Part shown: positions 5,771 to 50,593 of the stretch, piece by piece
Numbering within the stretch: the first letter of the stretch is position 1
Layout of the letters: each line of letters opens with the position of its first letter
IMG/VR virus record: IMGVR_UViG_3300021962_008747
Span: 1-64,000 of that record
Reading direction: 5' to 3' (one strand)
Length of the DNA: 64,000 nucleotides
From: a virus
The notes under the pieces: model-generated
What the model was told of the DNA's origin: nothing
Databases searched by the model: none
Seen by the model: the letters and a program-made list of their open reading frames with translations, nothing else
Program-made: the position numbers and the translations under genes

Positions 5771-5801
5771 AAAAAAACCCACCATAATAAAATAGTGGGT
5801 T
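5771..5801 (-). terminator. Terminator of the tmRNA gene
   Basis: On the minus strand: AACCCAC, a 12-nt loop, GTGGGTT, then a run of T. The stem begins 3 nt after the encoded CCA end of the tmRNA. Confidence 0.85.
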
Positions 5802-5804
5802 AAG

Positions 5805-6212
5805 TGGTGGACCTAGAGGGCTCCGACTCCCTCGTCCAGATCATCTTGTTTAAAAGACACCTACATGTTTAGGTTGGTGTTTTCTAACACCCCAAAATAT
5901 TTGATTTTATCTTGATCAAAAACAAGTATGGTTTGTTCTTCACTATCGTAAACCAAAAACCAATAGACCACTCAATTTCGGGTTTAGTGGTAATCTACCT
6001 TAGTCACTTCTGTTCCTGAGCGTATGTGAACCGGCTCGCGTATCCGTAAACTTCTTAAGCTACAGTTACTTCTTGAGTTGAGATTAGACCCAAAGTCTCA
6101 AGGTTGTTTAGCACATTGCCATTTGTAGTGTGAATCAGTTTTTAACGAGATTAATTCAGTCCCGACATGCTTCTTTTATTCAACCAATGCCCGTCAAATC
6201 CATTATAGGCCC
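5805..6212 (-). ncRNA. ssrA: tmRNA (SsrA), about 408 nt
   Basis: Transfer-messenger RNA, which rescues stalled ribosomes. Seen on the minus strand: 5' GGGCCTA pairs over 7 bp (one G-U) with TAGGTCC before an A and an encoded CCA. The D-region signature GGATTTGACGGG follows the 5' end. A PK1-like pseudoknot can be drawn (CGGGA/TCTCG and TGAAT/ATTCA) 10 nt before a GGC resume codon. The tag frame runs 22 codons to TAA, ending ACT-GTA-GCT-TAA. A T-stem GAGGG/CCCTC closes an unusual 8-nt loop lacking the standard TTCRA. It has a host-type promoter upstream and a terminator downstream. tmRNAs occur in some large phages; the glycine resume codon is as in Bacteroidota. Confidence 0.92.
6055..6120 (-). 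other. tmRNA tag-peptide reading frame
   Basis: From the GGC resume codon at 6120-6118 to the TAA at 6057-6055 the frame codes 21 residues, beginning GNVLNN and ending QEVTVA. The usual Bacteroidota tag is 8-10 residues and ends in ALAA. Here the tag is longer and ends in TVA, so recognition by the host ClpXP route may be altered. The frame was fixed by the position of the pseudoknot and by similarity of the end (GTA-GCT-TAA) to the usual GCA-GCT-TAA. Confidence 0.7.
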
Positions 6213-6293: not shown

Positions 6294-7475
6294 ATGTTGA
6301 AAAAAAAGTTTATTTTCGAAAACGATCATGAAGAAGACCCTGACAACTGGTCTGATTATAAAAACATCATGTATTTGGCTAAAAATAGAATTAGTCCGTA
6401 TGGTGTTACTTTTGAAACATCTGATGGTAAAAGTTTTGATGATATTATTGAAGTTACTCGCGACGGTATAATTTTTACTTTTGACGGATTAAAAGATTAT
6501 TTACAATTCTTTTTTCCTGAAGATTACGGTGAAGATAATACTGATGGTGAATGGGATGCTAGTAATTATGAATCAATGTATGAGGGTAACTGGGAGTGGT
6601 ATAATGATTTTTATGATAGAGATGTTGAAGATTGGAGAGAAGGTTATGTTACAGATCGTTTTAGAAAAAATCATTTAGAATTAATTAGAGATATAACAAA
6701 AACTATTTCACCAAGATTATACATAAAACTAACAAATGTTTTAGAAGAAAAAGAGGAATATGATGGAATATTAAATATTGAAGTAAGAGATTTTTTAGAT
6801 ACAATAAATATTGGTGATAATATAGTAGAGGCTTACACTGACGCTAATTACCAAGCAGTTGTAGATGAAATACCAAAAGGAATTAGAGAAACGTATTGTG
6901 ATTGCTTAAGAAATGTTGGTGTTGAAAGATATAGTAAAAAAACTTGTTTTTGGAAATATGAAATGGATTGGGGGTCTTGTATGATGTTATATGCTCGTTT
7001 TGGAACTGATGAAGACAAACTTTTAGATTTATTATTTGAATCAATTAAAAAAGAAGGTATTAGACATTTACCCGCATATTATGAAATGCAATATGAATTT
7101 TGGGATGACAATAGATTTGAAACTACATGGAATACAAAAGTTACAGAAGTTCTTGAAAAAAAATTAGAAGACATTCAAAATAATCCTGAAGATTACGATG
7201 AAAAATATTTAGAAGTTATTGATAAAGTATCCCAACTTGGAGGAATTAATACTTGGATCAAAACAAAAGATGGTAAATATGAAATATTAATTAGCGATAT
7301 TGAACCAAGCACTAGTTTAATTAAATATAAAATTAAAGAACCTTATAAGTGGCAAACTAAAGTAGGAAAAACTGATATTGATAGTTTAATAAATATGATT
7401 TATAACGAGAAGTTATTTAACATGTTGGAACATATTGATAGATTTTCAATACTTAGAAATAAAACGTTCCTTTAA
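6294..7475 (+). CDS. Acidic protein of unknown function
   Basis: A 393-residue cytoplasmic-type protein with no signal peptide or membrane segment. It is strongly acidic and rich in Trp and Tyr, mainly in residues 70-125 (several E-D-W-Y clusters). I recognise no family. It has its own late-type promoter box and overlaps the convergent peptidase gene by 30 nt at the 3' end. It is not part of an obvious operon; a DNA mimic or anti-host factor is possible for such an acidic protein but is not supported by a motif. Confidence 0.75.
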   Translation: MLKKKFIFENDHEEDPDNWSDYKNIMYLAKNRISPYGVTFETSDGKSFDDIIEVTRDGIIFTFDGLKDYLQFFFPEDYGEDNTDGEWDASNYESMYEGNWEWYNDFYDRDVEDWREGYVTDRFRKNHLELIRDITKTISPRLYIKLTNVLEEKEEYDGILNIEVRDFLDTINIGDNIVEAYTDANYQAVVDEIPKGIRETYCDCLRNVGVERYSKKTCFWKYEMDWGSCMMLYARFGTDEDKLLDLLFESIKKEGIRHLPAYYEMQYEFWDDNRFETTWNTKVTEVLEKKLEDIQNNPEDYDEKYLEVIDKVSQLGGINTWIKTKDGKYEILISDIEPSTSLIKYKIKEPYKWQTKVGKTDIDSLINMIYNEKLFNMLEHIDRFSILRNKTFL

Positions 7476-8492
7476 TATCTCATAAAGATAAACCAAATCA
7501 TCATCATTTATAAAAAGATTATTACCGTCAAAAATATCTGATATTGTAATACCATCTTTTTCTTCAATTACATCAATACTTTCTAATTGATGAACAGGGT
7601 AATCTTCAATTTCTTCATCATCTTCAAATTGTAATAAAGAATTCATAACAGTTTGTGGTGTATAAACAATTGGTTTATATTCGTACTTATATTTTTTTAA
7701 ACCCAATTCTTTAACCATATTTAATCCTGCGGTAATTGCATTTTTTACATCCTCTATTGATACAAATTCTTGGTTTGAATGCATGTTATAATAACCACAA
7801 GACATGTTGATACAACAAACATCAATTTTCTTTTTTAGTTGTGATATGTCAGTATATGGGTGTGATTGAACAAGCATTTCATTTCCAAATGCCCTTTCAA
7901 TAACATCAATTGATTTAATAAAAAATTCACTATCACGATCAAATAAACGAACTCCCGAGCAAATCTCGGATATTAAATGATTTCCCGGAGCATCATATTG
8001 AGTAATGTATCCAACATTTTGTAAGAAGTTTTCATCACATTTTGAAGATCCATGACAACCCGTTTCTTCTGAAACAAATAGACCAATTTTTACTTTATCT
8101 AATGTTTTAAGTAATTCTAAACAGATAAAAATACCACATTTATCATCACCACCAATACCTGTTGGATTACCGTCTTCGGTATATGCCTTCAAACACGGAA
8201 CCTCATCATTATTAAATGTTTTACCAAAAGTGTTTGGTCTGATGAGGTTCTCTTCTTTTACGATAATTTTATCTACCTTTTGATGAACGGTGTCCGTGTG
8301 GGCAATAAACATTGGGTAGTATTCACCTTCGTTTAATTCGCCTTTAGTTGCATATATATTCATCATATTATCTCGGTAGTAGGAGACGCCTGGAATTGTG
8401 TCAAGTTCATTACAAAGATATTCTACCATATCTTCTTCTTGATATGTTTTAGAAGGGATTGATAGTAACTCTTTGAATTTAGATAGGTTCAT
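7446..8492 (-). CDS. M20/M28/M42-type zinc aminopeptidase (peptidase T-like)
   Basis: A 348-residue metallopeptidase with the co-catalytic zinc-site pattern of the M20/M28/M42 clan: AHTDTVH (H65, D67), GGDDKCG (D116/D117), SEETGCHGSS (E142/E143), QYDAPG (D167) and a late histidine in YNMHSNQE (H238). All expected ligands are present, so it should be active. The last 70 residues are acidic and not part of the known fold. It is divergent from the 8541 gene, sharing an upstream region of about 48 nt. It is an unusual gene for a phage; use of host peptides during infection is one possible role. Confidence 0.8.
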   Translation of the reverse strand: MNLSKFKELLSIPSKTYQEEDMVEYLCNELDTIPGVSYYRDNMMNIYATKGELNEGEYYPMFIAHTDTVHQKVDKIIVKEENLIRPNTFGKTFNNDEVPCLKAYTEDGNPTGIGGDDKCGIFICLELLKTLDKVKIGLFVSEETGCHGSSKCDENFLQNVGYITQYDAPGNHLISEICSGVRLFDRDSEFFIKSIDVIERAFGNEMLVQSHPYTDISQLKKKIDVCCINMSCGYYNMHSNQEFVSIEDVKNAITAGLNMVKELGLKKYKYEYKPIVYTPQTVMNSLLQFEDDEEIEDYPVHQLESIDVIEEKDGITISDIFDGNNLFINDDDLVYLYEILKERFISKY

Positions 8493-10611: not shown

Positions 10612-10641
10612 CAAACTTACGAAAACTTTTAGAATCTACAA
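10612..10641 (-). promoter_or_regulatory. Host-type (Bacteroidota sigma) promoter
   Basis: On the minus strand: TTG, a 19-nt spacer, TAAGTTTG, a full match to the Bacteroidota TTG/TAnnTTTG consensus, 27 nt before the ATG at 10585. It lies over the 3' end of the ClpC-like gene. Confidence 0.7.
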
Positions 10642-12681
10642 AATGTTTTTTCTTTTTTTTGTGGGTTTTTTTATTTTAACCTCTGTTTTTTTATCTTTTT
10701 CGTTATATGATAATGTAAATTTAGAACCTTTTTCTGGATTGTCGGAAATAATTTTATCAGTCACAGCATCATCAACCCACTTTTGAATTGTTCTTTTTAA
10801 TATTCTTGCACCAAATCTAGTGTCTGTACCTACAGAAATGATATGTTTTTTCAAACTTTCTTCTACTTCTAATTCAAAATCAATTCCATTAATTCTTTCA
10901 TATACTTTTACTAATTCAATTTCTACAATTTTTAATAAATCATTTTCAGTAAGATCTTTAAAGTATATTATCTCGTCAAATCTATTTATAAATTCAGGTG
11001 CAAACTTTTTAAATAATTCTTTTTCTAATACTGATTTAATTTCCTCATCTTTTTGTTCTTGCTTAGTGTTTGTTGAAAAACCAACACCTGTACCATATTG
11101 TTGAACTATTCTAGTACCAACATTAGAGGTCATTAATATTATACAATTTTTGAAATTAATTTTTCTTCCGTGACCATCAGTTAAAAATCCTTCATCTAAC
11201 ATCTGTAAAAATACGTTGAATATTTCGGGATGTGCCTTTTCAATCTCATCTAATAAAATAACTGAATAAGGTTTATTTTTAATTTTATTTAAAAATGGAG
11301 ACCCATCCTCATACCCAACATAACCTGGTGAAGTTCCTGTTAATTTTGATGTTGCAATCTTATCTGAAAATTCACTCATATCTAATCTTATCAATGCATC
11401 TTCACTATTAAACATATGTTTTGCCAATTGTTTTGCTAACTCAGTTTTACCGACACCCGAATTACCAATTAATAAACCACTAAATATTGGTTTTTTAGGA
11501 TCATTTAAACCAACTTTATTTCTTTGGATTGCTCTTGAAATTTTTGATACGGCGTCATCTTGACCTATTACTTTAGAACATAAAGTTTCTTTTAGGGTTT
11601 TTAATTGCTCTGTCTCGTCCGTTGATATTTTAGAAATAGGTATTTTTGTAATTAATGATGCTACGTCATAAACCACATCTTCAGTAACTTCCCTTTTAAA
11701 TAAATTTCTATTTTTTTCAAACTCAGATTTTTCTCTTTCTAAATCATTTAAAATTTTTCTTTCTTTATCTCTAAGGTTTGCTGCTTCCTCATATCTTTGA
11801 CTATTAATAACTTTTACTTTTTCTTCTTTTATTTCTTGTGCTTGTCTTTTTAAATCCTCAATAATTTCAGGTAATTTAATTTCTACTTGTGATCTAGCAC
11901 CAACCTCATCAATAATATCAAAAGCTTTATCAGGGAATTCTCTATCTGTAATATATCTATCTGCTAACTCAACACATAATTTTAATATATCATCACTATA
12001 AGTGACTTTATGGTGGTCTTCATATCTTTCTTTAACATTTTTTAATATTTGTAGAGTTTCTTCTTTTGTTGATGGGTCCACCATAACTTTTTGAAATCTT
12101 CTTTCTAATGCGCCATCCTTTTCAATATTTTTTCTGTATTCCTCAAGTGTGGTTGCCCCAATACACTGTAGTTCACCTCTTGAAAGCGCAGGTTTAAAGA
12201 TATTTGACGCATCCATAGACCCTGAGGCGTTACCTGCACCAATCATCGTATGTATTTCGTCGATGAATACAATTATATCAGGATTATTATATAACTCTTC
12301 CATTATAACCTTCATTCTTTCTTCAAATTGACCTCTGTATTTAGTACCTGCAACAATTGAGGTCATATCTAATGAAACAATTCTTTTTCCCGCTAAATTT
12401 TGAGGACAATCCCCCTCAAAAATTTTTTTAGCTAATCCCTCAACTATAGCTGTTTTACCACAACCTGGTTCGCCTAATATAATTGGATTATTTTTTTTTC
12501 TTCTTGAAAGAATTTGAGCAATTCTATTAATCTCATTTTCTCTACCAACAACGGGATCCAATTTTCCCTCTTCTGCTAATTTTATAAGGTCTCTTGAAAA
12601 GTTGTCTAAAACAGGTGTTTTTGTTTTTGTCTCTGTATTTTTATTTTTAGATTTTTCTGATTCGTCAAATGATTCAATCAT
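10636..12681 (-). CDS. clpC: ClpC/ClpA-like AAA+ protein unfoldase without N-domain
   Basis: A 681-residue class I Hsp100 unfoldase. AAA module 1: Walker A GEPGCGKT (70-77), Walker B VFIDEIH (138-144). Middle domain with a UVR-type coiled coil (about 285-325). AAA module 2: Walker A GNSGVGKT (406-413), Walker [13 protein letters not shown] tripeptide at 533-535 is at the place of the ClpP-docking loop, so it could feed host ClpP. ClpC proteins are usually about 810-850 residues; this one begins at the linker ([11 protein letters not shown]) and lacks the two Clp_N repeats that bind adaptors. It is divergent from the UVR protein at 12857, a plausible partner. No ClpP gene is seen in the window. 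Confidence 0.9.
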
Positions 12682-12856: not shown

Positions 12857-13222
12857 ATGTTTAGTAGAAATTTTGAAAAATTATTTAACGAACTATGGTC
12901 ATCAGATCCATTTTTTAATGGTGGTAATTGGGAAAGAAAAAACTATAAGTCTGAAGATGGAAGTATTTCTTTTACCTACATTACAAATAAACGTGGAAAC
13001 CTTAATAAACAAGATGAGATATCTTTATTAAAACAAAAATTAGATATTGCGGTTGATAAACAAAATTTTGAGGAAGCAGTAGAACTCAGAGACAAAATTA
13101 AAAATTTAGAAAAAAATAAAGAAGAACTTATAAAACTTAATAAAGAACTAGATGAATGTGTAAAAAAACAAGATTTTGAAAATGCGATAATAATTAGAGA
13201 CAAAATTAAAGATTTAAAATAA
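12857..13222 (+). CDS. Two-UVR-motif protein, McsA-like ClpC adaptor candidate
   Basis: A 121-residue protein. Residues about 1-45 are unrecognised (MFSRNFEKLFNELW, aromatic rich). Two UVR motifs follow: LDIAVDKQNFEEAVELRDKIK and LDECVKKQDFENAIIIRDKIK. UVR motifs are found in UvrB/UvrC, in the ClpC middle domain and in the ClpC partner McsA. It lacks the zinc-finger cysteines of McsA. Its position divergent from a UVR-containing ClpC-like gene makes an adaptor role likely (inference). It ends at a strong terminator. Confidence 0.75.
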   Translation: MFSRNFEKLFNELWSSDPFFNGGNWERKNYKSEDGSISFTYITNKRGNLNKQDEISLLKQKLDIAVDKQNFEEAVELRDKIKNLEKNKEELIKLNKELDECVKKQDFENAIIIRDKIKDLK

Positions 13223-39462: not shown

Positions 39463-40194
39463 TCAATCCTTTTTTATCTTTTCTAAAGTAGTCAGATAAA
39501 GAGTCTTATATTTTTTAAGATATAATCTAATCTCTTTTGTGGATAAATTAGTCATTTCACGTAAAGATAAAAGTATTATATTTTTATTAAACTTATTATT
39601 GTCGTTACCTATAAAAATGTTTCCGTAGTTGTTAAACAACTCTATTAATGATTGACCTAATTTCATTTCCGAGTCGTTTAATTTCATATCCTGAATATAT
39701 GTTTTTAAGTCTTGTAAGAATACATCAATTATTTTTTCTGCGTCAATCTCTTCGTTTTCTATATAATATATTAAATCAGGCCTATTTTCCAAACTTGTAG
39801 AAATGTCTTCATAAGAAATTTTTCTATTCATTTCCCTTTGATCTTTTTGTATTTGACCCATTAAATAATTTTTACATATGGTACCAAAATAAGAATAGGC
39901 CTTCTTATTTTTATCTGGCTTAAACTTATCCACTTTTGTCATAAGAAAAGAATGAGTATCTGTGTGAAGATCTTTATAATCCATATCTTTTCTGTATAAT
40001 TTATATCTTCTAATAATAGAATCTATCATCTTATCAAGAGGATCTCTTAAAAAATTGTTATATATAAACTCTTTTTCTCTTTGGTCTTCACTATTAATAT
40101 AGTTAATAACTGCCTCTTCTTCGCGAATATCAAAATAATTATTTTTATTCGCCTTTTTCTTTTTTAATTCTTTGTTTTCATCATTAACTAACAT
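39463..40194 (-). CDS. Late-transcription sigma factor (gp55-like)
   Basis: A 243-residue protein that I read as a T4 gp55-type sigma factor. The region-2-like core is about residues 40-125: FIYNNFLRDPLDKMIDSIIRRYKLY, then DLHTDTHSFLMTKVDKFKPDKNKKAYSYFGTICKNYLMGQIQKDQRE. It would direct host RNA polymerase to phage late promoters; the TATTTATA boxes listed here are the natural candidates. It is the last gene of the glycosyltransferase operon, overlapping its neighbour by 1 nt, so it may be made before the structural genes it controls. Confidence 0.8.
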   Translation of the reverse strand: MLVNDENKELKKKKANKNNYFDIREEEAVINYINSEDQREKEFIYNNFLRDPLDKMIDSIIRRYKLYRKDMDYKDLHTDTHSFLMTKVDKFKPDKNKKAYSYFGTICKNYLMGQIQKDQREMNRKISYEDISTSLENRPDLIYYIENEEIDAEKIIDVFLQDLKTYIQDMKLNDSEMKLGQSLIELFNNYGNIFIGNDNNKFNKNIILLSLREMTNLSTKEIRLYLKKYKTLYLTTLEKIKKD

Positions 40195-40997
40195 TAAACA
40201 TTTTCTTCAACATACTTTATATTTCTATCTGTAGTAAAGAAATGTTCTTTTTTTGCGGTTTCTAACCAAAAACTAACCTCATTGTCGGAGATTTTTTCCT
40301 CACCATATTTGTAGTTCCAAAATAATGAACCTTCTCTCATATTTGTATGTTTATAACCAATTCTAGGTATTGTTAATATCTTATTAGAATTATATGTCAT
40401 TCTTAATAAAAGTTCATAAACAAAAGTTAATTTTATTGATGGTTTAAAACCTCCATTCTCTAAGAACTTTTCTTTTTTAACAACCATTCCACTCGTTTGA
40501 AAATTTTGATAATTTAACAATAGTTCATTTGTTAAATAACCTAACTCACTATTCATGCTGACGGCAAAAGTCGCTTCATTTGTAAACCCAGCAAAAACGC
40601 CTTTTTCATCTGTATCAACAACTAAAGGTAAAAACGCATCTATTTCAGGAAATGACTTTTCATAGTCTTTAACATTTTTAAACCATATAGAAGAATATTC
40701 ATCGTCAAATTCTAAAACAGAAACCCACTTACTTTTAGCTTCACTTACTCCTAAATTTACCTGTGTTGCGTAATCAAAAGAACCTTTATTTTCAATTAAC
40801 CTAACGGGTAATTGCTCAAAATCAAAATTTGATAAATGGCTGATTAATGATTCATCTGTTGAATGGACAATAATTAATTCATTTATTGGTAATGACTGAT
40901 TTTTTAAAGATTTTATTGATCTTTCTAACAATTCATCAAACCCTCTTACTTTTGAGCTTGAAAGCGGTAATATTACCGATACATCAAATTTTTCCAT
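40194..40997 (-). CDS. Family 2 glycosyltransferase
   Basis: A 267-residue GT-A fold enzyme: VSVILPLSSSK at the N-terminus (nucleotide-binding strand), RSIKSLKNQSLPINELIIVHS, and SKWVSVLEFDDEYSS, where the D-D pair takes the place of the DxD metal site. The sugar donor and acceptor cannot be told. It is part of the packed glycan operon 40194-53041. Confidence 0.8.
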   Translation of the reverse strand: MEKFDVSVILPLSSSKVRGFDELLERSIKSLKNQSLPINELIIVHSTDESLISHLSNFDFEQLPVRLIENKGSFDYATQVNLGVSEAKSKWVSVLEFDDEYSSIWFKNVKDYEKSFPEIDAFLPLVVDTDEKGVFAGFTNEATFAVSMNSELGYLTNELLLNYQNFQTSGMVVKKEKFLENGGFKPSIKLTFVYELLLRMTYNSNKILTIPRIGYKHTNMREGSLFWNYKYGEEKISDNEVSFWLETAKKEHFFTTDRNIKYVEENV

Positions 40998-41002
40998 ATT
41001 AA

Positions 41003-42067
41003 TTAATTTTCTACGTTTAATTTTATTTTTTCTAATTGTTCTTCAAATATCTCTAATCTAGTTTCAAAATATTTTTCAAATAACTTAACAACCTCCCCTT
41101 CAAATTTTTCAATATCTTTAAATTTATCTGAAGTATTTTTAATTTCTTCGTAAAGATTATCTGCAATATTATCCTCTAACCAATTTTGTGTAAAGTTTGC
41201 AATATAATCAACAATATCGTTTGTATTATTTGTCCAAATACCGTTATTTTCAGTCATCCACTCGTGAGGTAAATAAGGAACTTTACCAATTACAGGAGTA
41301 CCTGAAGACATAGATTCTAAAGGGAAAGTACCAAAAGAAGATATATCATCAACCCAAACAGAAAGATAACTTTCTTTTAAGAATTTAGAAAAATCATTTT
41401 GACTAATTCCTCTCATATCTCTAAACGTTAACCATCTAAACTGAGGATATTTTAAATAAAATGTTTTTATAATTTTTGCAGTATCTCTTTGTTCTCTGGA
41501 GTGTATTGAAATAATAGGGTTAGCGGGTCTTTCTTTTTTATTAAAAATAGATGATATTGTTGGCTCAATAATATCCACACTAACATTTCTAAAAATATCT
41601 GTTATGTATTTTTTTTGATTTTCACTAGTAGTAATACATTTTATAAAACCAAAATTAGCCCAAGAAGTTCCAGGCGCTAACGTTTCTAACATATAATCAT
41701 ACGACTGACATAAAACAATTTTACCACAAGTAAAGTTTTTTAATTGCTCCATTACATGACCATAAATTTCAGGAATAATAATAAAATCTTCAGGTGATAT
41801 TTGCAAATTTTGACCATCAATTGTTTGATGAGGTAATTCCATATACTCCTCACTCAACCAAGAAGATACTCCTTTATAATCTTGACTTTCATGAATGATA
41901 ATACTGTTATAACCTTTCTTAGAAAGAATCAAAGCCAAGTCATAAATGTATTTAACAGAAGCTTTTGGGTTACCTTTAGTGTCCTGCACTAAAAAATAAA
42001 TTCTTGACAACTTGTTTTTTAAACTGTTGACGGATTTTTCTAATTTTTCAATTTTTTCTAATTCCAT
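41003..42067 (-). CDS. GT-B (family 4-like) glycosyltransferase
   Basis: A 354-residue protein. An N-terminal coiled coil (ELEKIEKLEKSVNSLKNKL) precedes a GT-B fold: KYIYDLALILSKKGYNSIIIHES in the first domain, and ISIHSREQRDTAKIIKTF plus the donor-site segment FGTFPLESMSSGTPVIG in the second. The E in the latter is the usual family-4 nucleotide-sugar ligand. The C-terminal 50 residues are again coiled coil. It may glycosylate a virion or surface component. Confidence 0.75.
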   Translation of the reverse strand: MELEKIEKLEKSVNSLKNKLSRIYFLVQDTKGNPKASVKYIYDLALILSKKGYNSIIIHESQDYKGVSSWLSEEYMELPHQTIDGQNLQISPEDFIIIPEIYGHVMEQLKNFTCGKIVLCQSYDYMLETLAPGTSWANFGFIKCITTSENQKKYITDIFRNVSVDIIEPTISSIFNKKERPANPIISIHSREQRDTAKIIKTFYLKYPQFRWLTFRDMRGISQNDFSKFLKESYLSVWVDDISSFGTFPLESMSSGTPVIGKVPYLPHEWMTENNGIWTNNTNDIVDYIANFTQNWLEDNIADNLYEEIKNTSDKFKDIEKFEGEVVKLFEKYFETRLEIFEEQLEKIKLNVEN

Positions 42068-42070
42068 TTT

Positions 42071-42358
42071 TTAAAACTTTTTAAGTATTTTATTTATTAA
42101 TAAAGTGTTGAATGCGATTTTAAATGGGATTGTTAAGTTTTTTGCCCCATGTATACCTAAATCTTCATCTAACTCTTCACGTTCTGTAAGTAAAACCTCG
42201 ATCAAACTTTTAAAGGTTTCAAATCTTGTTACACTTATTTGTTGTTCTGGAGATTCTGTATCACCCGTGGTTAAAGGTAAAACAGATTTTTCGTAACTTA
42301 CTTGTTTTTCTAGTTCATTAATGTCCAAGAAATAGTTTTCTCCTAAAAATTCTAACAT
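42071..42358 (-). CDS. Small protein of unknown function
   Basis: A 95-residue helical protein (MLEFLGENYFLDINELEKQVSYEKSV, then SVTRFETFKSLIEVLLTEREELDEDLG). No motif. It overlaps the HAD-like gene by 7 nt and is 3 nt from the glycosyltransferase, so it is translated with them. Confidence 0.6.
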   Translation of the reverse strand: MLEFLGENYFLDINELEKQVSYEKSVLPLTTGDTESPEQQISVTRFETFKSLIEVLLTEREELDEDLGIHGAKNLTIPFKIAFNTLLINKILKKF

Positions 42359-43002
42359 ATATCTAATTTTTTTAATGTTTCGTCAAATTCTTTCAATGTG
42401 TTTATTTCATATTCACAACTGACATTTTTATTATAATTCGTATTAAATTTTACTACGATTTTATCTTTTGGTTTTTCTAATATTAGTTGAGGATTGGACG
42501 TAAGTAAAATGTCTACTTCATTCCACATTGAATTTATTGTAACATTTGAGTAAAATTTTATCTTTTCTAGTAAACATCCAAACTTAGAAAGAAAAAATAA
42601 TGAAGATGGCTTTGATTTTCCCATCTCATCAGAAACAATTAATAATTCATTTTTGTCTCGATATTTTAAATAAATTTCATTCAAGTCATTAAATGTAAAT
42701 GTTTCGGTGGACCCTGCGTGACCAAATATTTGCATCGCAAAATCTTCATACATAAAAGAATATAATTCATCTTCATTAGTAAAATTAAAATGATTCATTA
42801 AATTCAATGAAGTCACTTCACTAAGTATTTTATATTCAAATTCTACTATAGGTACTATTTCTTCAGTATTCCCTGAAAGATCGATTTCATAGGTTTTACT
42901 ATTATCATCTTTTTCTTCAATCATATGTTTTTCATATAACTGAGTAAATTTTCCAATAGTATCTCTTAGAACACCGTTAATCTCAATCCCTATTCTCTTC
43001 AT
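42352..43002 (-). CDS. HAD-superfamily-like protein with altered nucleophile motif
   Basis: A 216-residue protein with the outline of a HAD phosphatase: an N-terminal strand-loop IGIEINGVLRDT and a later LLIVSDEMGKSKPSSLFFLSKFG segment. The family's catalytic DxD is read here as E-I-N, so both the nucleophile Asp and the acid/base Asp are changed and the protein is probably not a phosphatase. Overlaps PhoH by 20 nt. Confidence 0.55.
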   Translation of the reverse strand: MKRIGIEINGVLRDTIGKFTQLYEKHMIEEKDDNSKTYEIDLSGNTEEIVPIVEFEYKILSEVTSLNLMNHFNFTNEDELYSFMYEDFAMQIFGHAGSTETFTFNDLNEIYLKYRDKNELLIVSDEMGKSKPSSLFFLSKFGCLLEKIKFYSNVTINSMWNEVDILLTSNPQLILEKPKDKIVVKFNTNYNKNVSCEYEINTLKEFDETLKKLDIC

Positions 43003-43714
43003 ATTTTTTTAATAACTTACTTATAAGTGGGTTTCTTACAACATCACCATCACCAAATTCAAACACACCAATATCAGAAACATCATTAAACTTTTTAATT
43101 GCATCATAAAGACCTGATTGTTTTTTATCTCTATAACGGTCAGTTTGTTCAATATCGCCCGATATAAAGAATTTACTATTAAACCCGATTCTTGTCAATA
43201 GTAATTTCATTTGATTTGGGCTTGAGTTTTGGGCCTCTTCAAATATTAAAATTGTATTATCAATATTCATCCCTCTCATATATGCCAAAGCAAACACCTC
43301 GATCACTTCCGCATCTTTTAGTCTTTCACGGGCTTCCTTACCTATGATTTTATTTAATAGATAATAAGAAGGAAAAATATAAGGGTCTAATTTTTCTTCT
43401 AAGTTACCCGGTAAAGAACCAAGTTTTTCTTCTGCTTCGACCGCTGGTCTAACAATAACTAATTTTTCATAAGAATTAGTCGGGTCCATTAATAAATCAA
43501 CTGCAGCCTTCATAGCGATGTACGATTTACCGACACCCGCGGGTCCCGAACAAATAGTTATCTGATTATTTCTTAAAAGGTTATAATAGTGTTCTTGACT
43601 CTCAGTTAGGAATTTATTTTTAATTTTTTTCTTTATTACCGAATTAATAAAGTCTTTTTTAGAAAAAGGTTTGGATTCTTGTTCTTCGGTTTGAGGTTGT
43701 TTTTTTCTTGTCAT
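42983..43714 (-). CDS. phoH: PhoH-like ATPase
   Basis: A 243-residue P-loop ATPase of the PhoH family: NNQITICSGPAGVGKSYIAMKAA with Walker A GPAGVGKS, IVRPAVEAEEKLGSLPGNLEEKLDPY, AYMRGMNIDNTILIFEEAQN with Walker B, and the S/T-GDIEQTDR motif. PhoH genes are very common in T4-like and marine phages. The role is uncertain (RNA-related helicase or phosphate-stress function have been suggested). Confidence 0.92.
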   Translation of the reverse strand: MTRKKQPQTEEQESKPFSKKDFINSVIKKKIKNKFLTESQEHYYNLLRNNQITICSGPAGVGKSYIAMKAAVDLLMDPTNSYEKLVIVRPAVEAEEKLGSLPGNLEEKLDPYIFPSYYLLNKIIGKEARERLKDAEVIEVFALAYMRGMNIDNTILIFEEAQNSSPNQMKLLLTRIGFNSKFFISGDIEQTDRYRDKKQSGLYDAIKKFNDVSDIGVFEFGDGDVVRNPLISKLLKKYEENRD

Positions 43715-43719
43715 AGTTT

Positions 43720-44544
43720 TTATTTATAAAGTTTGATTGAAAAATCCTTTAACTCGTTAAGTTGATCTTTTAATGTAGGTATATCAAATTTGTTTATATC
43801 ATCATATATTGTAGACAAACTTCTATCACAAGTTTTTTCAGTTTGTTTTTCAACCACAGTAACGTTAAGTTCAAATGTTTTACTTATTAATTCTACTAAT
43901 TCCTTTTTATTAAGTGTATTTGAGTGTAGATGTTTTGTACCACCCCAAAATAAATTTTTATCAATCATTTTTTTACAAATTTTTGCAAATTCTAAACAAG
44001 TTACACCATTCCAAAAATGATTAGTAAACCCATTAACCGTTTTATTTTTTTCGGACTTAACCCATTCTATAAGTGATCTACCTTGATTTACTTCTTCACC
44101 TATAATTGATGTTCTTATAACTGTACAATTTTTTGGTTCCCCAAGGGCTTTAGACATACCATAAACATCGTAAACATCATAATTATCATTTTCAGAATAA
44201 CTACCTTTGTTACCTGAATATACACAGTCGGTTGTTGGGTGTATCATTTTTACTTTGTAATACTCACATACATTTGCTAAAATTCTTGGGAAAACTGAAT
44301 TTACTAATACTGCATTTAAATCACCCAATTGATCTACTCTTGGTTTTATTGTGCCTGCGCAGTTGATTACTACATCTCCCTCATTAATTTTTAAATGTAT
44401 AAATTTTGCTTTTAATTCAGACTCTTTAATTAAAGATGCGTCTATATCTTTTCTACTAATTTCAACTACTTCATAATAATCATTCAAATACGTAGATACG
44501 TATTTCCCTAACATTCCGGTACTTCCTATAACAAAAATTTTCAT
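43720..44544 (-). CDS. dTDP-4-dehydrorhamnose reductase-like (RmlD/SDR) protein
   Basis: A 274-residue extended SDR. N-terminal IGSTGMLGKYV nucleotide-binding motif, NCAGTIKPRVDQ, PTTDCVYSGNKGSYSENDNY and the catalytic Y-G-M-S-K (DVYGMSKALGEP). This is the RmlD layout: reduction of a 4-keto sugar in deoxysugar synthesis. It is followed in the operon direction by other sugar genes and preceded by an RmlC-like cupin. Confidence 0.82.
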   Translation of the reverse strand: MKIFVIGSTGMLGKYVSTYLNDYYEVVEISRKDIDASLIKESELKAKFIHLKINEGDVVINCAGTIKPRVDQLGDLNAVLVNSVFPRILANVCEYYKVKMIHPTTDCVYSGNKGSYSENDNYDVYDVYGMSKALGEPKNCTVIRTSIIGEEVNQGRSLIEWVKSEKNKTVNGFTNHFWNGVTCLEFAKICKKMIDKNLFWGGTKHLHSNTLNKKELVELISKTFELNVTVVEKQTEKTCDRSLSTIYDDINKFDIPTLKDQLNELKDFSIKLYK

Positions 44545-44561
44545 ATTTTATATTTTATATT

Positions 44562-44981
44562 TTATCTATATTCTTCATTCCATATGTCCCACTTGTCGTG
44601 TTCCTGTCTTATATCGTCACCTAAACTTTCATCTAATGTTGACGTTGAAAAAAACATTATTTTTGTATTTTCTTCTAATGATTTAAATCCGTTATAATTA
44701 CCTGGAGGTATCCATAGTATTTTTGGTGATTTACTACTTAATACAAACTTTTTTACTTCTTCAGTCTCCATATTCACTACACCGATTAACGCAGAACCAC
44801 TTGTTACGTACACATATTTACCTTCTTTTTTGTGTCCGTGCCACGCTCTTATAAATCCCCTTCTGTGATTTTCTACTTGGTAAAATCTTTTTACTCCGAT
44901 AAAGTTAAAATCATTAACAAAACTAACAGAACCTCTATCATCGATAGAAAGTCCGCCATTTAAAATTTTACTTTCTGTCAT
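44562..44981 (-). CDS. dTDP-sugar 3,5-epimerase-like cupin (RmlC/FdtA-like)
   Basis: A 139-residue cupin. VKRFYQVENHRRGFIRAWHGHKKEGKYVYVTSGSALIGVV has the histidines of the RmlC/FdtA/WxcM-like family, and SPKILWIPPGNYNGFKSL is the second cupin motif. It could be a 3,5-epimerase or a 3,4-ketoisomerase. It overlaps the epimerase gene at 44978 by 4 nt. Confidence 0.78.
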   Translation of the reverse strand: MTESKILNGGLSIDDRGSVSFVNDFNFIGVKRFYQVENHRRGFIRAWHGHKKEGKYVYVTSGSALIGVVNMETEEVKKFVLSSKSPKILWIPPGNYNGFKSLEENTKIMFFSTSTLDESLGDDIRQEHDKWDIWNEEYR

Positions 44982-45937
44982 ACTAATTCTTTTTTATCTT
45001 TTTTATCTTTTAAAAAGGCTCCGTTGTGATAAACCCTGTCTTCAGGATCGATAACTCTATTTTCTTTAAACATGTTAAACATTCTTAATACCTCATCTTC
45101 AACAGATACTTGCGGTTTGTACTTAAAAATACTTAAAGATTTAGAATTATCAACCATATAGTTTCTTGCGTCTTGGAAAGAAATCTCAGTATAATTTATT
45201 TTAGTTTCTGGAATTATTTTGGTTATCCTCTCACCTAATTGCTTTATTATTACATTTTCTTTTGATAAAATAAAAATTCCGCCGTAGTTTTCTTTGCAGT
45301 CCTCAACAATATATTCCGCGATATCTTTAACGGCAATTATTGGTCTCCATTGTTCTCCACCGTTTATAGTTATTTCTTTGTCTTTAACCGATTTCATAGT
45401 TAAAACGTTTACAACTAAATCCATTCTAAGTCTAGAATATGTATCTCCTAAACCAAAAACAGTACCTAATCTAAATACCGTTCCTCCTTTTTGTAATACA
45501 TATTTTTCAGCAGCTAATTTAGTCGACGCATATGAAGATAATGGGTTAGTATCACTATCCTCATTTAATAAACCTTCTTGTGCACCATAAACTGAACATG
45601 TAGACATAAAAATTAAATGTTTGTTTGGTGAAACCACTTCACAAAAATCTTTAATAGATTTAAAATTTATTTCTTCAGTTAATTTGTGATCAACACTACA
45701 TGCAGGATCACCAACTAATGCTGCCATTAAAACTATAATATCAAAATTTTTAGATACGTTATATAATTTTTCAGTATCTCTAATATCACCATATATAAAT
45801 GGAATTTCTTTTAGATAACGGTTTTCATATAATAAATTATCATAAATAGTAACATTAAAACCTTCTCTAATTAAATAATCGCAAGTTAGCCCACCAATAT
45901 AACCGGCACCACCAACAACTAAAACATTCTTTTTCAT
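44978..45937 (-). CDS. NAD-dependent nucleotide-sugar epimerase/dehydratase
   Basis: A 319-residue extended SDR: VLVVGGAGYIGGLTCDYL (G-G-x-G-x-x-G at residues about 9-15), FIYGDIRD, FMSTCSVYGA, and the catalytic YASTKLAAEKY. The C-terminal domain ends with KDKKDKK. It acts on UDP- or dTDP-sugars; the exact sugar is not determined by the sequence. It is coupled to the RmlC-like gene. Confidence 0.85.
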   Translation of the reverse strand: MKKNVLVVGGAGYIGGLTCDYLIREGFNVTIYDNLLYENRYLKEIPFIYGDIRDTEKLYNVSKNFDIIVLMAALVGDPACSVDHKLTEEINFKSIKDFCEVVSPNKHLIFMSTCSVYGAQEGLLNEDSDTNPLSSYASTKLAAEKYVLQKGGTVFRLGTVFGLGDTYSRLRMDLVVNVLTMKSVKDKEITINGGEQWRPIIAVKDIAEYIVEDCKENYGGIFILSKENVIIKQLGERITKIIPETKINYTEISFQDARNYMVDNSKSLSIFKYKPQVSVEDEVLRMFNMFKENRVIDPEDRVYHNGAFLKDKKDKKELV

Positions 45938-45940
45938 TTT

Positions 45941-46507
45941 TTATTTTTTATTTTTTAAATTTAATAGGTATAATCTACCTCCGTATTTCTCACCAAAATT
46001 AAGTATGTCAAAATATTTTTGTATTTTTGGTTCCCAATAATTCATGTTTTCTTGAATTAAATGTAACTCAACTCCGTTATGGATATCAGAATGGTTTGCA
46101 ATGGTCAAAATTGAGAATTTTGATATCTTATTAAATGTTTTAAAAATATCGTCTACGCAATCTTTTTGTACGTGTTCTAACACGTCTAAACAAACTAATA
46201 AATCATAGTTTTTATTTTCTATTTTACTGAGTGAATTTTTATCACATAAGTTTAATTCTAAAAACTCACAATCATATTCGTGAAATTTTTTTAGATCACA
46301 TGAAGTTATCTCAATACTTGGATCTAGTTCTTTTATTATTTTGATTACATTACCTCTACCAGATCCAACATCCAATACCGATTTTATTTCATTTTCAATA
46401 ATAAAATTCTTTACTAATTGAAATCTATATTCCTCATCTGGGTGTTTATTGTAATTAGTGTCATTAAATGACGATTCATAAATGTTTTTAAAGTTTACTT
46501 TATTCAT
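45941..46507 (-). CDS. Class I SAM-dependent methyltransferase
   Basis: A 188-residue methyltransferase with motif I IKSVLDVGSGRGNVIKII (SAM-binding GSGRG), an ITSCDLKKF acidic motif II and YDLLVCLDVLEHVQKD motif IV. The VLEHV phrase is typical of sugar or small-molecule O/N-methyltransferases. Its place among glycosyltransferases suggests a methylated sugar product. Confidence 0.85.
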   Translation of the reverse strand: MNKVNFKNIYESSFNDTNYNKHPDEEYRFQLVKNFIIENEIKSVLDVGSGRGNVIKIIKELDPSIEITSCDLKKFHEYDCEFLELNLCDKNSLSKIENKNYDLLVCLDVLEHVQKDCVDDIFKTFNKISKFSILTIANHSDIHNGVELHLIQENMNYWEPKIQKYFDILNFGEKYGGRLYLLNLKNKK

Positions 46508-47229
46508 AGATTTTTCATTGTATAGTTTAATAATAAATTTTTATTTTTTTCTAGTAATTCGGAAGCATTAAGATGACTATAATTAACACTCTGATGCCAC
46601 TGGTGTGCAACAAAAGGATAATCTATTATTTTAATTTGTAGACCTTTTTTATTTACCCTAAAAAGAAATTCGTCGTCATCATATGCTAAACCAAGAGAAT
46701 ATCTTTGATCAAAACCATTTAATATTTCTAAATTTTTTTTGGTTATTACAGAACAAAAATGATACCCTTTGGGTCTATATATACTATGGTTATACCATGA
46801 TAATTGGCCGTCCATGGTTGCCGCAACATTTAGTATTTCAAAATCTTTTTTATTGTATGTGCTTTCTTTATCTAATGAATAACAAGCAAAACTAAAATAT
46901 TCATTATCAGTTATTTCTAAAGATTTTTTCATCACGTCGCCGACATGTTTACACTCAGGATTTTGGATAATTACTATATCACCTTTAATTTCTTTAAATC
47001 CAATATTAAACGGAACACACGGGTTTATCCACCATTTATCTTCTTTTTCTATTCTTATTACTTTTAAATTAGGGTATAAGTCTTGTAAATCTTCAATTCT
47101 ATGTTCGTCCGAACTAACATCATCAACAACTATATATTCATAGTCTTTAACTTCAGAATTTTTTAATGATTCAAGGGTGTTAATCAATAAATCTTTTCTA
47201 TTGTAATAAGCACTAACTATCGATATCAT
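46504..47229 (-). CDS. Family 2 glycosyltransferase
   Basis: A 241-residue GT-A enzyme: ISIVSAYYNRKDLLINTLESLKNS, YEYIVVDDVSSDEHRIEDL, then GDIVIIQNPECKHVGDV in place of a classical DxD, and a LGLAYDDDEFLFRVNKKGL segment with an acidic cluster near the C-terminus. It overlaps the methyltransferase gene by 4 nt. Confidence 0.82.
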   Translation of the reverse strand: MISIVSAYYNRKDLLINTLESLKNSEVKDYEYIVVDDVSSDEHRIEDLQDLYPNLKVIRIEKEDKWWINPCVPFNIGFKEIKGDIVIIQNPECKHVGDVMKKSLEITDNEYFSFACYSLDKESTYNKKDFEILNVAATMDGQLSWYNHSIYRPKGYHFCSVITKKNLEILNGFDQRYSLGLAYDDDEFLFRVNKKGLQIKIIDYPFVAHQWHQSVNYSHLNASELLEKNKNLLLNYTMKNL

Positions 47230-47230
47230 A

Positions 47231-48304
47231 TTAAATTTTTTCTTTTAAGATATTTATAATTTTTTCAGAAGTTGTTCCATCACCTAACCATTCTGTTTTT
47301 CTGTCGTTTGACTTTAATAATAACCAACTTTCTGAATTTGCCCAAGTAAAGTTTTTATTTGTGTTAACATCAATCATAAATGAACAATTGTTATTAACAG
47401 ATTCCGGTCTTTCTGTAAAATCTCTTGGTACTATTACCGGAGTATTAAGTAATGCTGGCTCTTCTTGTGCGGTCCCTGAATCTGAAATAATAAATTTTGA
47501 ATGATATACTTGATTAACATATTCTTTGAATGGTAATAAATTAATTATTTTTATGTTTTTTAAATCAATATTATACTCGTTTATATAGTCTAATGTTCTT
47601 TTGAAACCTAACATAAAAACAGGTAAACCATATTTTTCACTTATTTGGTTAGTATAATTAATTATATTATGTAATCTATCCTTATATTTAAAATTTTCTG
47701 GTCTGTGTATATCTAGTATAATTCTATCATTTTTTTTATTTTCTTTAGGTATGTGATTTTTTACAACTTCTACTATGGTGTTTCCTACAACAAAAATAGA
47801 ATCTTTATGTATGTTTTCTTTTAACGCCTTATCTTTGTAATTATCGTGATAAACAAATAAAAAATCGCTACAGTGATCACAAACAACCCTATTTATTTCC
47901 TCTAACATTCTTTTATCGTAAGAACGCATACCTGCCTCTATGTGACCAATTTTATAACCTTCTTTTTTTAAAGAAACTGAGGAGGTCACCGAATTTGAAT
48001 CCCCAAGAAACAAAATAATGTCAGGATTCAATTTTTCTTTACGAATTAATTCAATTAATTTAACAGATAAATCCGCGCTTTGGTGAAAATGTTCCTTACC
48101 TATACCTCCTATTTCTAAATTAAAGTTTGGTTTACGAATTTCTAATTCATCAAAAAAAACATCCGAAAGTAATTTATCAAAATGTTGGCCAGTATGGATT
48201 AAAATGTGGTTAAAATTTTTATCTAATTTTTTAAATATTTCAGACATTCTGATAAAATCAGGACGGATACCTGTAACGGTAATAATTGTTTTATTATTTA
48301 TCAT
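47231..48304 (-). CDS. UDP-N-acetylglucosamine 2-epimerase (WecB-like)
   Basis: A 357-residue GT-B-like epimerase: TVTGIRPDFIRMSEIFKKL, HTGQHFDKLLSDVFFDELEI, GDSNSVTSS, IGHIEAGMRS and SDSGTAQEEPALLNTPVIVPRDFTERPE. These match the non-hydrolysing UDP-GlcNAc 2-epimerase family, which makes UDP-ManNAc. It gives a precursor for the glycan made by the neighbouring transferases. Confidence 0.9.
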   Translation of the reverse strand: MINNKTIITVTGIRPDFIRMSEIFKKLDKNFNHILIHTGQHFDKLLSDVFFDELEIRKPNFNLEIGGIGKEHFHQSADLSVKLIELIRKEKLNPDIILFLGDSNSVTSSVSLKKEGYKIGHIEAGMRSYDKRMLEEINRVVCDHCSDFLFVYHDNYKDKALKENIHKDSIFVVGNTIVEVVKNHIPKENKKNDRIILDIHRPENFKYKDRLHNIINYTNQISEKYGLPVFMLGFKRTLDYINEYNIDLKNIKIINLLPFKEYVNQVYHSKFIISDSGTAQEEPALLNTPVIVPRDFTERPESVNNNCSFMIDVNTNKNFTWANSESWLLLKSNDRKTEWLGDGTTSEKIINILKEKI

Positions 48305-49082
48305 TTAAATTTATATTAAATATGTTATCAACTTCTACGGTGTTATACTCTGAAGGAGGGTTACCTGGAGTTATGGCCTTCATTCCGTGAGTCCAATTAT
48401 TAAAATAATTTATAAAAGTAGGAATGTAATTATCAAAGTTTATTTTTGCAGATGAATTACGTAATTTTTTTTCAATATCTTTTCTTATAAAACTCATATG
48501 ATGCATTTCAATTTCATCCCTTTCAAACCTTTTAAATTTTCCAGAATCCATACTTCTAGTTGGATCGGTTAGTACAGGAAAGTTATTTGCAAAAACATAT
48601 GTAATATTTGGTCTTATTTTGAATAGTAAACTAACATAATATTCTTCTTTTGGTTCTAATCTATATATTGGTTCTTTGTAATAAGTTGACATTTGGCATG
48701 CGGAAGAATCGTAATCTCCATCTAAAATTATTTTTTTCATATACTCAAATTGACTTTTTAAATAATACTCATCGGTATCCATAGACATGTGATGAGTACA
48801 CCCTCTTTTTTCGGAAAACATCAAACCAATATTTCTTTTATTAACCTCATTAATATGGGGGGAAACACCAAGTAGTGGGTGATATTCTATTATATCATCA
48901 ACTAAACCATCTTTTTTTAAATTATTTAAATAATTTTCTAAATTTTTGTTACAGTCTTGACCATAATTTGATTTTTTTTGGAAAACAACCGAAATATAAT
49001 CAACACTATTTCTTATTTGTGTTATAGAACCTTTTAAATGTTCTTCAGCATCAAAAACATTATAACTAACACCTACTTTCAT
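48294..49082 (-). CDS. Putative glycosyltransferase (GT-A-like)
   Basis: A 262-residue protein beginning MKVGVSYNVFDAEEHLKGSITQIRNSVDYISVVFQ, with a central HMSMDTDEYY that supplies a DxD metal site. The family is not recognised with certainty; it resembles unnamed GT2/GT92-like proteins of large phages. It overlaps its neighbours by 11 nt and 4 nt. Confidence 0.65.
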   Translation of the reverse strand: MKVGVSYNVFDAEEHLKGSITQIRNSVDYISVVFQKKSNYGQDCNKNLENYLNNLKKDGLVDDIIEYHPLLGVSPHINEVNKRNIGLMFSEKRGCTHHMSMDTDEYYLKSQFEYMKKIILDGDYDSSACQMSTYYKEPIYRLEPKEEYYVSLLFKIRPNITYVFANNFPVLTDPTRSMDSGKFKRFERDEIEMHHMSFIRKDIEKKLRNSSAKINFDNYIPTFINYFNNWTHGMKAITPGNPPSEYNTVEVDNIFNINLNDK

Positions 49083-50593
49083 TTTGTATTAATTTTTTGT
49101 ATTTTATTTTGTATTTTATCCCATCTTTTTTGAACCGCAGGTACTAAATAGTTTATATAGTCATAATTTAATTTTTGTAGATTTTCGGGGTCCAAGTTTC
49201 TAGAAAGAGATTCATAGTGATATGCGACACAATCACTATTTTGGATGTTTTCAAAACCTAAAGAGTTTGTTTCTATGTTTAATTCAACATCTTCAAAACA
49301 TGAAATATAATTTTCATTAAAAAAACCAATCTTTTCAAAAAGTTTTTTTCTTATCATTAGTAATCCACCTGTATTCCCAAAAACAACAATATTATTTGTA
49401 AAAAAATTATAATAGTTTTTTATATTCAAATGACCAACCTCTAATTTTTTATCTATAATTGCCATAAAAATACCATTATGTTGTATGGTATTATCTGCGT
49501 AATGTAATCTACCCCCAACGGTTCCCGCTTTTTTATTCTTTTCAAAAGTATCTAAAAACCCTGTAATAACATCATTAAGTATTTTTATATCATTATTACA
49601 AAACAAAATAAATTCGTATTCGTCACCAACATGGTTTTTAACAACATCGTTATTTATTTTTGCAAAGTTATAATAATCATATTCTATGAATGACACATTT
49701 TTAAAAGAAGTTATAAAATCTATTGTTTCTTTTTTTTCTAATTCAGAAGACCCTGTATCTGCAATAAAAATATTAAACACGTCACTATCACAATTTTCAA
49801 AAAATGAATTTATACAGTCTTTTAGAATTGGTACGTTACCTTTAGTAGGTATAATAATTGCCACCTTACCAAACTTTTTAAATTTTTTTGTATCTATTTT
49901 TTTGTAAAAAACTTTTTGTGGTTTTAAATCTAATGGTAAAATATTACCCCATTTTTCTAAAAATTTATTTTTACTTTCAAAAAATTCTTGATTTGGTTTA
50001 CCAACAGACTCATGGGTGATTTCAAAAGAAGACGTAACACCTATCTTAACGTTTTCTAAATAATTTGGTATACAAAATCCGTGATCATAAAAATGAAATT
50101 TACCAAAAGTTTCATCAAATCTATGTTTAATTTTATTTTTATCAAACGATATAAAAAGACCATCAATAGTAACTACAGGTATTATTTCAGGTATTTTAGG
50201 TGAATATTTACTTAACCATTTTTTTTGATTTGGTGGGTGGTGGTAAACCTGACCAACCATAGTTCTTTGCATATTTTCCCAATACACTCCAGATTCAGGA
50301 AAATAACATGAACCGGCTTTACCTAAAATACCATATTCTTTATTTTCATTAAAGTCATTTAGTAATTTTTTACCCCAATTTTTTTCTAGTTTTATATCGT
50401 TATGACAACAAACGATTATATTAAAAATTGATTCACCAATACCCTTGTTGTAAATTTGTGATAATGCGAACTCATTATTATTTTCATATTCAAGAATTTG
50501 TATGTCTTTTAGACCACAACTTTCTAATAAATGTTTTTTAAACTTGTCGTTATAGGTTTTGTCCTTATGTGTCGAATAAATAATACTTATCAT
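49079..50593 (-). CDS. Two-domain glycosyltransferase (tandem GT-A)
   Basis: A 504-residue protein. Residues about 1-230 form an unusual GT-A-like domain (ISIIYSTHKDKTYNDKFKKHLLES, NIIVCCHNDIKLEKNWG). Residues about 240-500 form a typical family-2 domain: KVAIIIPTKGNVPILKDCINSFF, FIADTGSSELEKKE, ILFCNNDIKIL (N-N-D in place of DxD) and GFFNENYISCFEDVELN. Such tandem enzymes may add two different sugars. Overlaps dUTPase by 4 nt (ATGA). Confidence 0.78.
   Translation of the reverse strand: MISIIYSTHKDKTYNDKFKKHLLESCGLKDIQILEYENNNEFALSQIYNKGIGESIFNIIVCCHNDIKLEKNWGKKLLNDFNENKEYGILGKAGSCYFPESGVYWENMQRTMVGQVYHHPPNQKKWLSKYSPKIPEIIPVVTIDGLFISFDKNKIKHRFDETFGKFHFYDHGFCIPNYLENVKIGVTSSFEITHESVGKPNQEFFESKNKFLEKWGNILPLDLKPQKVFYKKIDTKKFKKFGKVAIIIPTKGNVPILKDCINSFFENCDSDVFNIFIADTGSSELEKKETIDFITSFKNVSFIEYDYYNFAKINNDVVKNHVGDEYEFILFCNNDIKILNDVITGFLDTFEKNKKAGTVGGRLHYADNTIQHNGIFMAIIDKKLEVGHLNIKNYYNFFTNNIVVFGNTGGLLMIRKKLFEKIGFFNENYISCFEDVELNIETNSLGFENIQNSDCVAYHYESLSRNLDPENLQKLNYDYINYLVPAVQKRWDKIQNKIQKINTK

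Follow-up and report, generated by a model that had tools for sequence, protein, structure and literature searches.

Comparative analysis indicates that the 64-kb stretch of viral DNA examined here (the window) encodes a real and conserved phage tmRNA of a new variant, whose link to an unfoldase encoded by the same phage is suggestive and unproven. The virus record containing the window is 99.7 kb long and carries T4-type TerL, gp20, and gp23; the tmRNA belongs to a large clade of T4-like phages whose hosts are probably Bacteroidota. Elsewhere in the window, a minus-strand gene block (40194–50593) encodes proteins with N-termini like those of glycosyltransferases and nucleotide-sugar enzymes, among them an NDP-sugar epimerase-like gene (44978–45937).

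Structure of the tmRNA Gene

The covariance model RF00023 matches positions 6212 to 5805 (minus strand) over its entire length (model positions 1–374; 78.4 bits against a threshold of 47 bits; E = 9.7e-29), and this is the sole RNA-family match across the 64-kb window to reach its gathering threshold. The acceptor stem (GGGCCUA/UAGGUCC followed by ACCA) contains both G3-U70 and the encoded CCA (Table 1). The D-loop sequence GGATTTGACGGG occurs once in the window (expectation, 0.13 matches at one mismatch or fewer), and an 18-mer from this region retrieves five nearly identical copies from viruses, each carrying the window's tag. ARAGORN reported no tmRNA at 5805–6212 when run on the window. 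The T-loop has eight nucleotides (AGTCGGAG) where TTCRANN is expected, and the tag ends in TVA where Ala-Ala is expected; despite the deviation of the T-loop in one element, assignment to the tmRNA family stands on the remaining features.

An earlier note, made from the DNA letters alone, had described a phage tmRNA with all its parts, a tag of 21 residues with TVA at its end, and a T-loop departing from TTCRA. The full-length RF00023 match, the terminator hairpin, PK1, the GGC, and the CCA bear out the first of these points; the tag is confirmed as 21 codons (GNVLNNLETLGLISTQEVTVA) followed by UAA, in a frame conserved in relatives, and the odd loop as the 8-nt sequence given above. The covariance model, which that note had named as a check, aligns the GGC as read and gives neither another frame nor a tag ending in ALAA.

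Table 1. Positions of the tmRNA gene, its parts, and neighboring genes in the window
Feature	Position	Strand	Basis
Complete one-piece tmRNA (ssrA)	5805–6212	−	RF00023 match; helix covariation in 57 relatives
5′ acceptor strand GGGCCUA, pairing with 5809–5815; has G3-U70	6206–6212	−	
3′ acceptor strand UAGGUCC, discriminator A (A73), and encoded CCA	5805–5815	−	Sequence; RF00023 alignment
D-loop region GGATTTGACGGG	6190–6201	−	RF00023 alignment; motif search
Pseudoknot PK1 (CGGGA/UCUCG and UGAAU/AUUCA)	6131–6164	−	Pair covariation in 57 relatives
A at −4 of the resume codon (equivalent to E. coli A86)	6124	−	Invariant in 57/57
Tag frame GNVLNNLETLGLISTQEVTVA (21 codons, Gly resume codon GGC) and stop UAA	6055–6120	−	Alignment; frame conservation
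T-arm, with 8-nt loop AGTCGGAG at 5821–5828	5816–5833	−	Loop class common to 67 relatives
Intrinsic terminator directly 3′ of CCA	5776–5801	−	10-bp hairpin and T run
ClpC-type AAA+ unfoldase without N-domain, 681 aa, VGF ClpP-docking loop; proposed tag reader	10636–12681	−	PDB ClpC; PHROG 4871
PepT/M42-like peptidase, lying between the Clp and tmRNA genes; may have a role	7446–8492	−	
UVR/McsA-like protein, 121 aa, divergent, adjoining Clp; possible Clp partner	12857–13222	+	PF02151, 62 bits

The predicted helices are supported by an alignment of 57 sequences with a mean column identity of 54%. Pairs in P1, P2, PK1, and the T-stem have a covariation of 0.359, compared with 0.148 ± 0.007 in shuffles and at most 0.185 in slid controls; double-changed cells number 197, as against 62 in shuffles; and RNAalifold finds 24 of 32 pairs backed by compensatory changes. 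The G3-U70 pair, which is the alanine-identity wobble, is retained in 172 of 174 relatives.

Two classes of T-loop are present in the family, an 8-nt AGTC(G/A)GAG and a 7-nt TTCGANN. The odd T-arm sequence matches 42 viral contigs, and the odd loop accounts for 20 of the 121 loci that were not picked by their T-loop. The window's own tag sits on 33 odd-loop and 10 canonical-loop copies; since both loop classes occur with identical tags, it appears that tag and tRNA-like domain are swapped as modules and that the odd loop is a maintained variant and not the product of decay. Decay of the T-loop was ruled out, the loop being conserved and present also on a tmRNA bearing a different tag. The latter belongs to an unrelated phage (L099, 2808–3261), with the odd T-loop AGTCGGAG and an alphaproteobacterial-like tag (ANNDVEIDDFAIAA). 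A natural internal deletion is seen in L340 (16300–16530), where it shortens the tag to GNVLDNLSVVGLN and removes the middle pseudoknots; the Clp of this phage is 95% identical to that of the window. Five loci with a match to the tmRNA T-arm (L090, L093, L103, L107, and L112) also contain GOLLD RNA (RF02032), which in L090, L093, L107, and L112 lies roughly 0.1–1.8 kb from the tmRNA, on the opposite strand.

Reading Frame and Conservation of the Tag

The RF00023 alignment places the window's GGC on the resume codon of the model; its P5/stop region falls, with low posterior, on a UAA outside the tag frame, apparently because the long tag does not fit the model. In E. coli, an A four bases before the resume codon sets the frame (the A86–G90 rule; PMC2481249). 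The corresponding A89–G93 is invariant here, the A at −4 being kept in 57 of 57 diverse relatives.

Codon statistics were compiled from 58 distinct tag DNAs, each beginning with a Gly codon. Codon position 2 is the least variable and position 3 the most (entropy 0.34 versus 1.16), and codons with a single difference are divided 911:438 between synonymous and nonsynonymous changes in the tag frame, versus 341:958 and 46:1280 in the other frames. Because the search pattern constrained the C-terminal codons and left codons 1–10 free, the count was repeated on codons 1–10, giving 495:334 in the tag frame versus 283:698 and 49:965. The alternative frames hold stops in 58/58 and 57/58 of the tag DNAs, and ARAGORN independently reads the tags GNTFAKMSALGLMREASVVAA, GNTFAKMAALGLTREAVVVAA, and GNTFAKLSTLGLIREESVVTA in distant relatives. 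As judged from these codon patterns, the tag amino acids are under purifying selection in the tag frame, codons 1–10 included.

The most conserved part of the tag is its V-A/T-V-A C-terminus, part of which was fixed by the search pattern. The first 13 residues are also conserved, within a long N-terminal part that alternates hydrophobic residues. Every tag ends in a small hydrophobic stretch with a terminal Ala; the ends are TVA, AVA, VAA, or VTA, with VVAA and VVTA in distant members, and the VVAA ends came from members that were found without the C-terminal search pattern. The lineage of the window has lost the terminal Ala-Ala. The length of the tag is not decisive in itself, because Chlamydia uses a tag of 22 residues (PMC12493166).

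Distribution of the Tag Family

Homologous tags were identified in at least 120 viral contigs (consensus, GNVLNKLEALGLIRTEEVTVA) with a degenerate DNA pattern describing the C-terminal end of the tag (GLxx[T/G]x[E/Q]V[T/A]VA*), and an nhmmer model of the tmRNAs matches every tag-bearing viral locus. Across 84,980 genomes of bacteria and archaea, the same pattern gave five matches, all of them lacking a tmRNA 5′ motif upstream, in agreement with a rough chance estimate of a few. Host tmRNA is present in 145 of 148 Bacteroidota genomes; the parsed host tags (70 loci, about one-third unparsed) are all classical, ending in YALAA, YAMAA, YRLAA, or similar, and TTCRA is found in every parsed T-arm of this set. 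As far as these searches reach, the tag family is therefore viral, the cellular matches being without a tmRNA and the parsed host tags classical, and on the same grounds a host origin of the tag was ruled out.

Searches of 50,697 phage records with the tmRNA (blastn) and with the 21-residue consensus tag (tblastn), short queries for which these methods are insensitive, gave no match and hence no cultured phage with the tag. A tmRNA was also looked for, and not found, in immuto, a T4-like Flavobacterium phage in culture, and the literature searches turned up no account of this tag family. SmpB was found neither in the window's virus nor among 34 large records, so host SmpB must serve the phage tmRNA.

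A Phage Unfoldase Encoded Near the tmRNA

The predicted Clp protein encoded upstream of the tmRNA has ClpC as its best PDB match (E = 2e-202, over residues 11–669), and since the alignment begins at ClpC residue 149, the N-domain is missing. Its relatives are also about 680 residues long and are without the N-terminal adaptor-binding domain. The protein has two AAA+ domains, both Walker sites, a D1 KYRG and a D2 GYVG loop, and an M-domain segment; among 93 homologs, GYVG is present in all 93, and the VGF/IGF docking loop was recognized in 85, the remaining eight being unparsed. By these motifs the phage Clp is ClpC-like, set apart from ClpC by the absent N-terminal adaptor-binding domain. Firmicutes ClpC/ClpP (PDB 6em9 and 3j3r) shares the two AAA+ rings, the short M-domain segment, the pore loops, and the docking loop, but Firmicutes ClpC has an N-domain that binds MecA-type adaptors. 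The UVR/McsA-like gene stays beside Clp in many relatives; its product scores 42.5 bits against the NCBIfam McsA model, under the cut-off. The peptidase slot between Clp and the tmRNA is also kept, and in many relatives it is occupied by a 44–52% identical homolog in the opposite orientation.

Clp is present in 32 of 34 large records, most of which were chosen because they bear the tag, and the identical 32 carry the tag; in all 32, Clp lies on the tmRNA strand, about 1.8–5.7 kb upstream of the tmRNA. The two exceptions are a fragment without a tmRNA and L099, whose tmRNA bears the alphaproteobacterial-like tag. Starting from Clp, a tmRNA is found in 52 of 80 loci, and the other 28 end too early to tell; among these 80, no locus with at least 6 kb covered downstream was without a tmRNA. 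Clp occurs also in phages without the present tag. Presence alone cannot prove a partnership, because both are core genes of the clade, and the co-occurrence is largely shared descent within that one clade. Presence or absence was accordingly judged insufficient as the sole evidence, and co-divergence with controls was used instead.

Tag distances were regressed on the distances of several genes, with 1000 permutations; genes flanking the tmRNA and the remaining segments of the RNA served as controls. The standardized coefficients were 0.53 for Clp versus −0.02 for TerL (n = 30), 0.69 versus −0.03 for the peptidase (n = 72), 0.69 versus −0.02 for ORF393 (n = 52), and 0.59 versus 0.09 for ORF252 (n = 52); the Clp coefficient was reached by 0 of 1000 permutations. 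The peptidase and ORF393 both sit nearer the tmRNA than Clp does. With Clp and the peptidase in the model, the Clp coefficients were 0.19, 0.08, and 0.14 for the 5′, middle, and 3′ segments of the tmRNA and 0.69 for the tag. This co-divergence suggests a reader–tag pair, being the pattern expected of one, and is not proof; Clp evolves slowly and, of the genes near the tmRNA, may just be the one that tracks phylogeny most cleanly, the intervening genes being fast or swapped with paralogs and the RNA flanks subject to recombination.

Proposed Role and Alternative Explanations

The reading that we tentatively prefer, at close to an even chance, is that this is a working phage tmRNA whose tag is a phage-specific degron, read mainly by the phage ClpC-type unfoldase without an N-domain acting on host ClpP. 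Its basis in the sequence is the completeness of the tmRNA, the tag frame and its selection, the Ala-identity pair, the failure to find a phage SmpB, the linkage and co-divergence with Clp, and the intact motor and docking motifs. That the RNA is expressed and charged, that proteins are tagged with it and are then recognized by the phage Clp and degraded, and what the host is, we infer. The phage tmRNA would be charged by host alanyl-tRNA synthetase and would work with host SmpB; where a ribosome stalls during infection, as on cleaved mRNA for instance, it would add Ala and GNVLNNLETLGLISTQEVTVA and free the ribosome. The tag would then act as a private C-terminal degron read mainly by the phage unfoldase, which would dock on host ClpP via the VGF loop, and the nearby PepT-like peptidase may finish the resulting peptides. 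Because the N-domain is absent, the phage motor cannot use standard ClpC adaptors; recognition would then fall to the pore of the motor or to another protein of the phage, for instance the UVR protein, and host ClpXP may contribute to turnover of the tag. Stalling the synthesis of phage proteins is among the defenses discussed for the Bacteroidetes species Cellulophaga baltica (PMC9723584), which would give a phage a reason to carry a rescue RNA.

It is conceivable, at rather under even odds, that the tmRNA tag and the phage Clp are a co-evolving pair, Clp being the dedicated reader, and form a self-contained viral circuit for tagging and destroying proteins, a private code parallel to the host tmRNA–ClpXP system; on the same joint reading, this code would run on host ribosomes, SmpB, and ClpP.

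A credible competitor, though one we doubt, is an ordinary phage tmRNA whose tag is degraded by host ClpXP/ClpCP, the phage Clp serving head assembly, general proteostasis, or similar functions. An ssrA tag ending in LVA works in E. coli, where AANDENYALVA confers fast turnover (half-life about 13 min versus 8 min for LAA; PMC3511798); relatives of the window's tag end in VVAA and VVTA, all the tags share the small hydrophobic end with its terminal Ala, and Clp is found also in phages without the present tag. The tag end (TVA, AVA, or VAA) may thus suffice for host ClpXP, and the earlier note's suggestion that ClpXP does not see the tag is weak and does not follow. Set against this explanation are the dissimilarity of the phage tags to every parsed host tag, the conservation of the first 13 residues for no obvious ClpXP reason, the higher ClpXP KM caused by changes of the penultimate Ala (PMC7652416), and the co-divergence of the tag with the phage Clp. 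The diversion of tagged proteins to the phage ClpC-like unfoldase, also proposed in that note, gains circumstantial support from the linkage in 32/32 records, the docking loop, and the co-divergence.

Rescue without destruction, in which the tag is invisible to proteases or has a role in localization or assembly, the ribosomes being released and the products spared, is improbable. It would account for the length and conservation of the tag's N-terminal part, in which hydrophobic residues alternate, and for the loss of the terminal Ala-Ala in the window's lineage, but the V-A/T-V-A end is degron-like and the most conserved part (with the reservation on the search pattern given above), VVAA occurs in distant members found without that pattern, and the adjacent Clp unfoldase has a ClpP loop.

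More improbable still is a decoy or decaying tmRNA, poorly charged or processed owing to its odd T-loop, that only titrates SmpB or inhibits host tmRNA. The loop AGTCGGAG does break the TTCRA rule and ARAGORN fails on it, a precedent exists in the tRNA-like stub of mycobacteriophage DS6A (PMC4131195, PMC11915505), and L340 has its natural internal deletion; 67 relatives nevertheless keep this loop class, with the same tags as are found on canonical-loop copies, and the tag frame, PK1, and G3-U70 are still under selection, a conserved tag being superfluous for a decoy. A chance product or artefact (misassembly of a host tmRNA, or a pseudogene whose frame is open by accident), which might be feared because the record is a metagenomic virus fragment, is refuted by the comparative data, namely the many independent contigs, the compensatory changes, the frame conservation, and the lack of a cellular source among the genomes searched, and its probability is negligible.

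Comparison with Known Systems

The window RNA shares with one-piece Bacteroidota tmRNA (RF00023) the P1 helix, D-loop motif, P2, PK1, A at −4, Gly resume codon, G3-U70, and CCA. In contrast to Bacteroidota host tags, which have 9–10 residues and end in YALAA or YAMAA (GENNYALAA, GNTQYAMAA), the phage tag has 21 residues and ends in EVTVA; the 8-nt T-loop and the location in a viral genome without SmpB are further differences.

Phage-borne tmRNAs dependent on host SmpB are likewise known from mycobacteriophages Bxz1 and Wildcat, Bacillus phage G, Melnitz, and Bradyrhizobium elkanii phages, but their descriptions include neither such a tag family nor a Clp linkage (PMC4131195, PMC9004378, PMC12656738); the Melnitz tmRNA is of the two-piece, alphaproteobacterial type, unlike the one-piece RNA of the window. 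The tmRNA of Cellulophaga phage phi38:1 (NC_021796, 26803–27164), a cultured Bacteroidota phage, has a long tag, read as GNNTNAVNAQIEANMEAVNAILNLEVAVGV, that contains EVAV, and a peptidase gene lies nearby. It differs in its 30-residue tag ending in LEVAVGV (ARAGORN starts the tag later than in this reading), in its canonical T-loop, and in having no ClpC annotated; long tags without Ala-Ala may therefore be wider among Bacteroidota phages. The NC_021796 record annotates a small opposite-strand CDS at the tmRNA site. The bS21 phages (PMC9723584) and moraphages (PMC12619734) are large aquatic phages with predicted Bacteroidota hosts that carry a Clp ATPase or have it as a core gene; the papers on them mention no tmRNA.

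By the count of an ARAGORN-based survey, about 2% of phage genomes carry a tmRNA (PMC9004378), and a 2025 database holds 97,179 tmRNAs, viral genomes included (PMC11915505). Genes of the kind described here are probably under-reported, because ARAGORN misses many of them or misreads their tags. In a huge-phage tmRNA (LR756508.1, 92434–92880; L421), the frame from GGC appears open for about 36 codons, and ARAGORN proposes GRRKPLSW.

Implications for Phage Biology

The tag family is conserved across very divergent phages and was not found in the cellular genomes searched. Tagging, if it takes place, would leave peptides containing NNLETLGLISTQEVTVA, and the tag and the phage Clp are a candidate orthogonal degron–unfoldase pair. 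Phage tmRNAs were known already; the coupling of this tag family to a phage unfoldase, in position and in evolution, offers a concrete and testable proposal for the role of a phage tmRNA.
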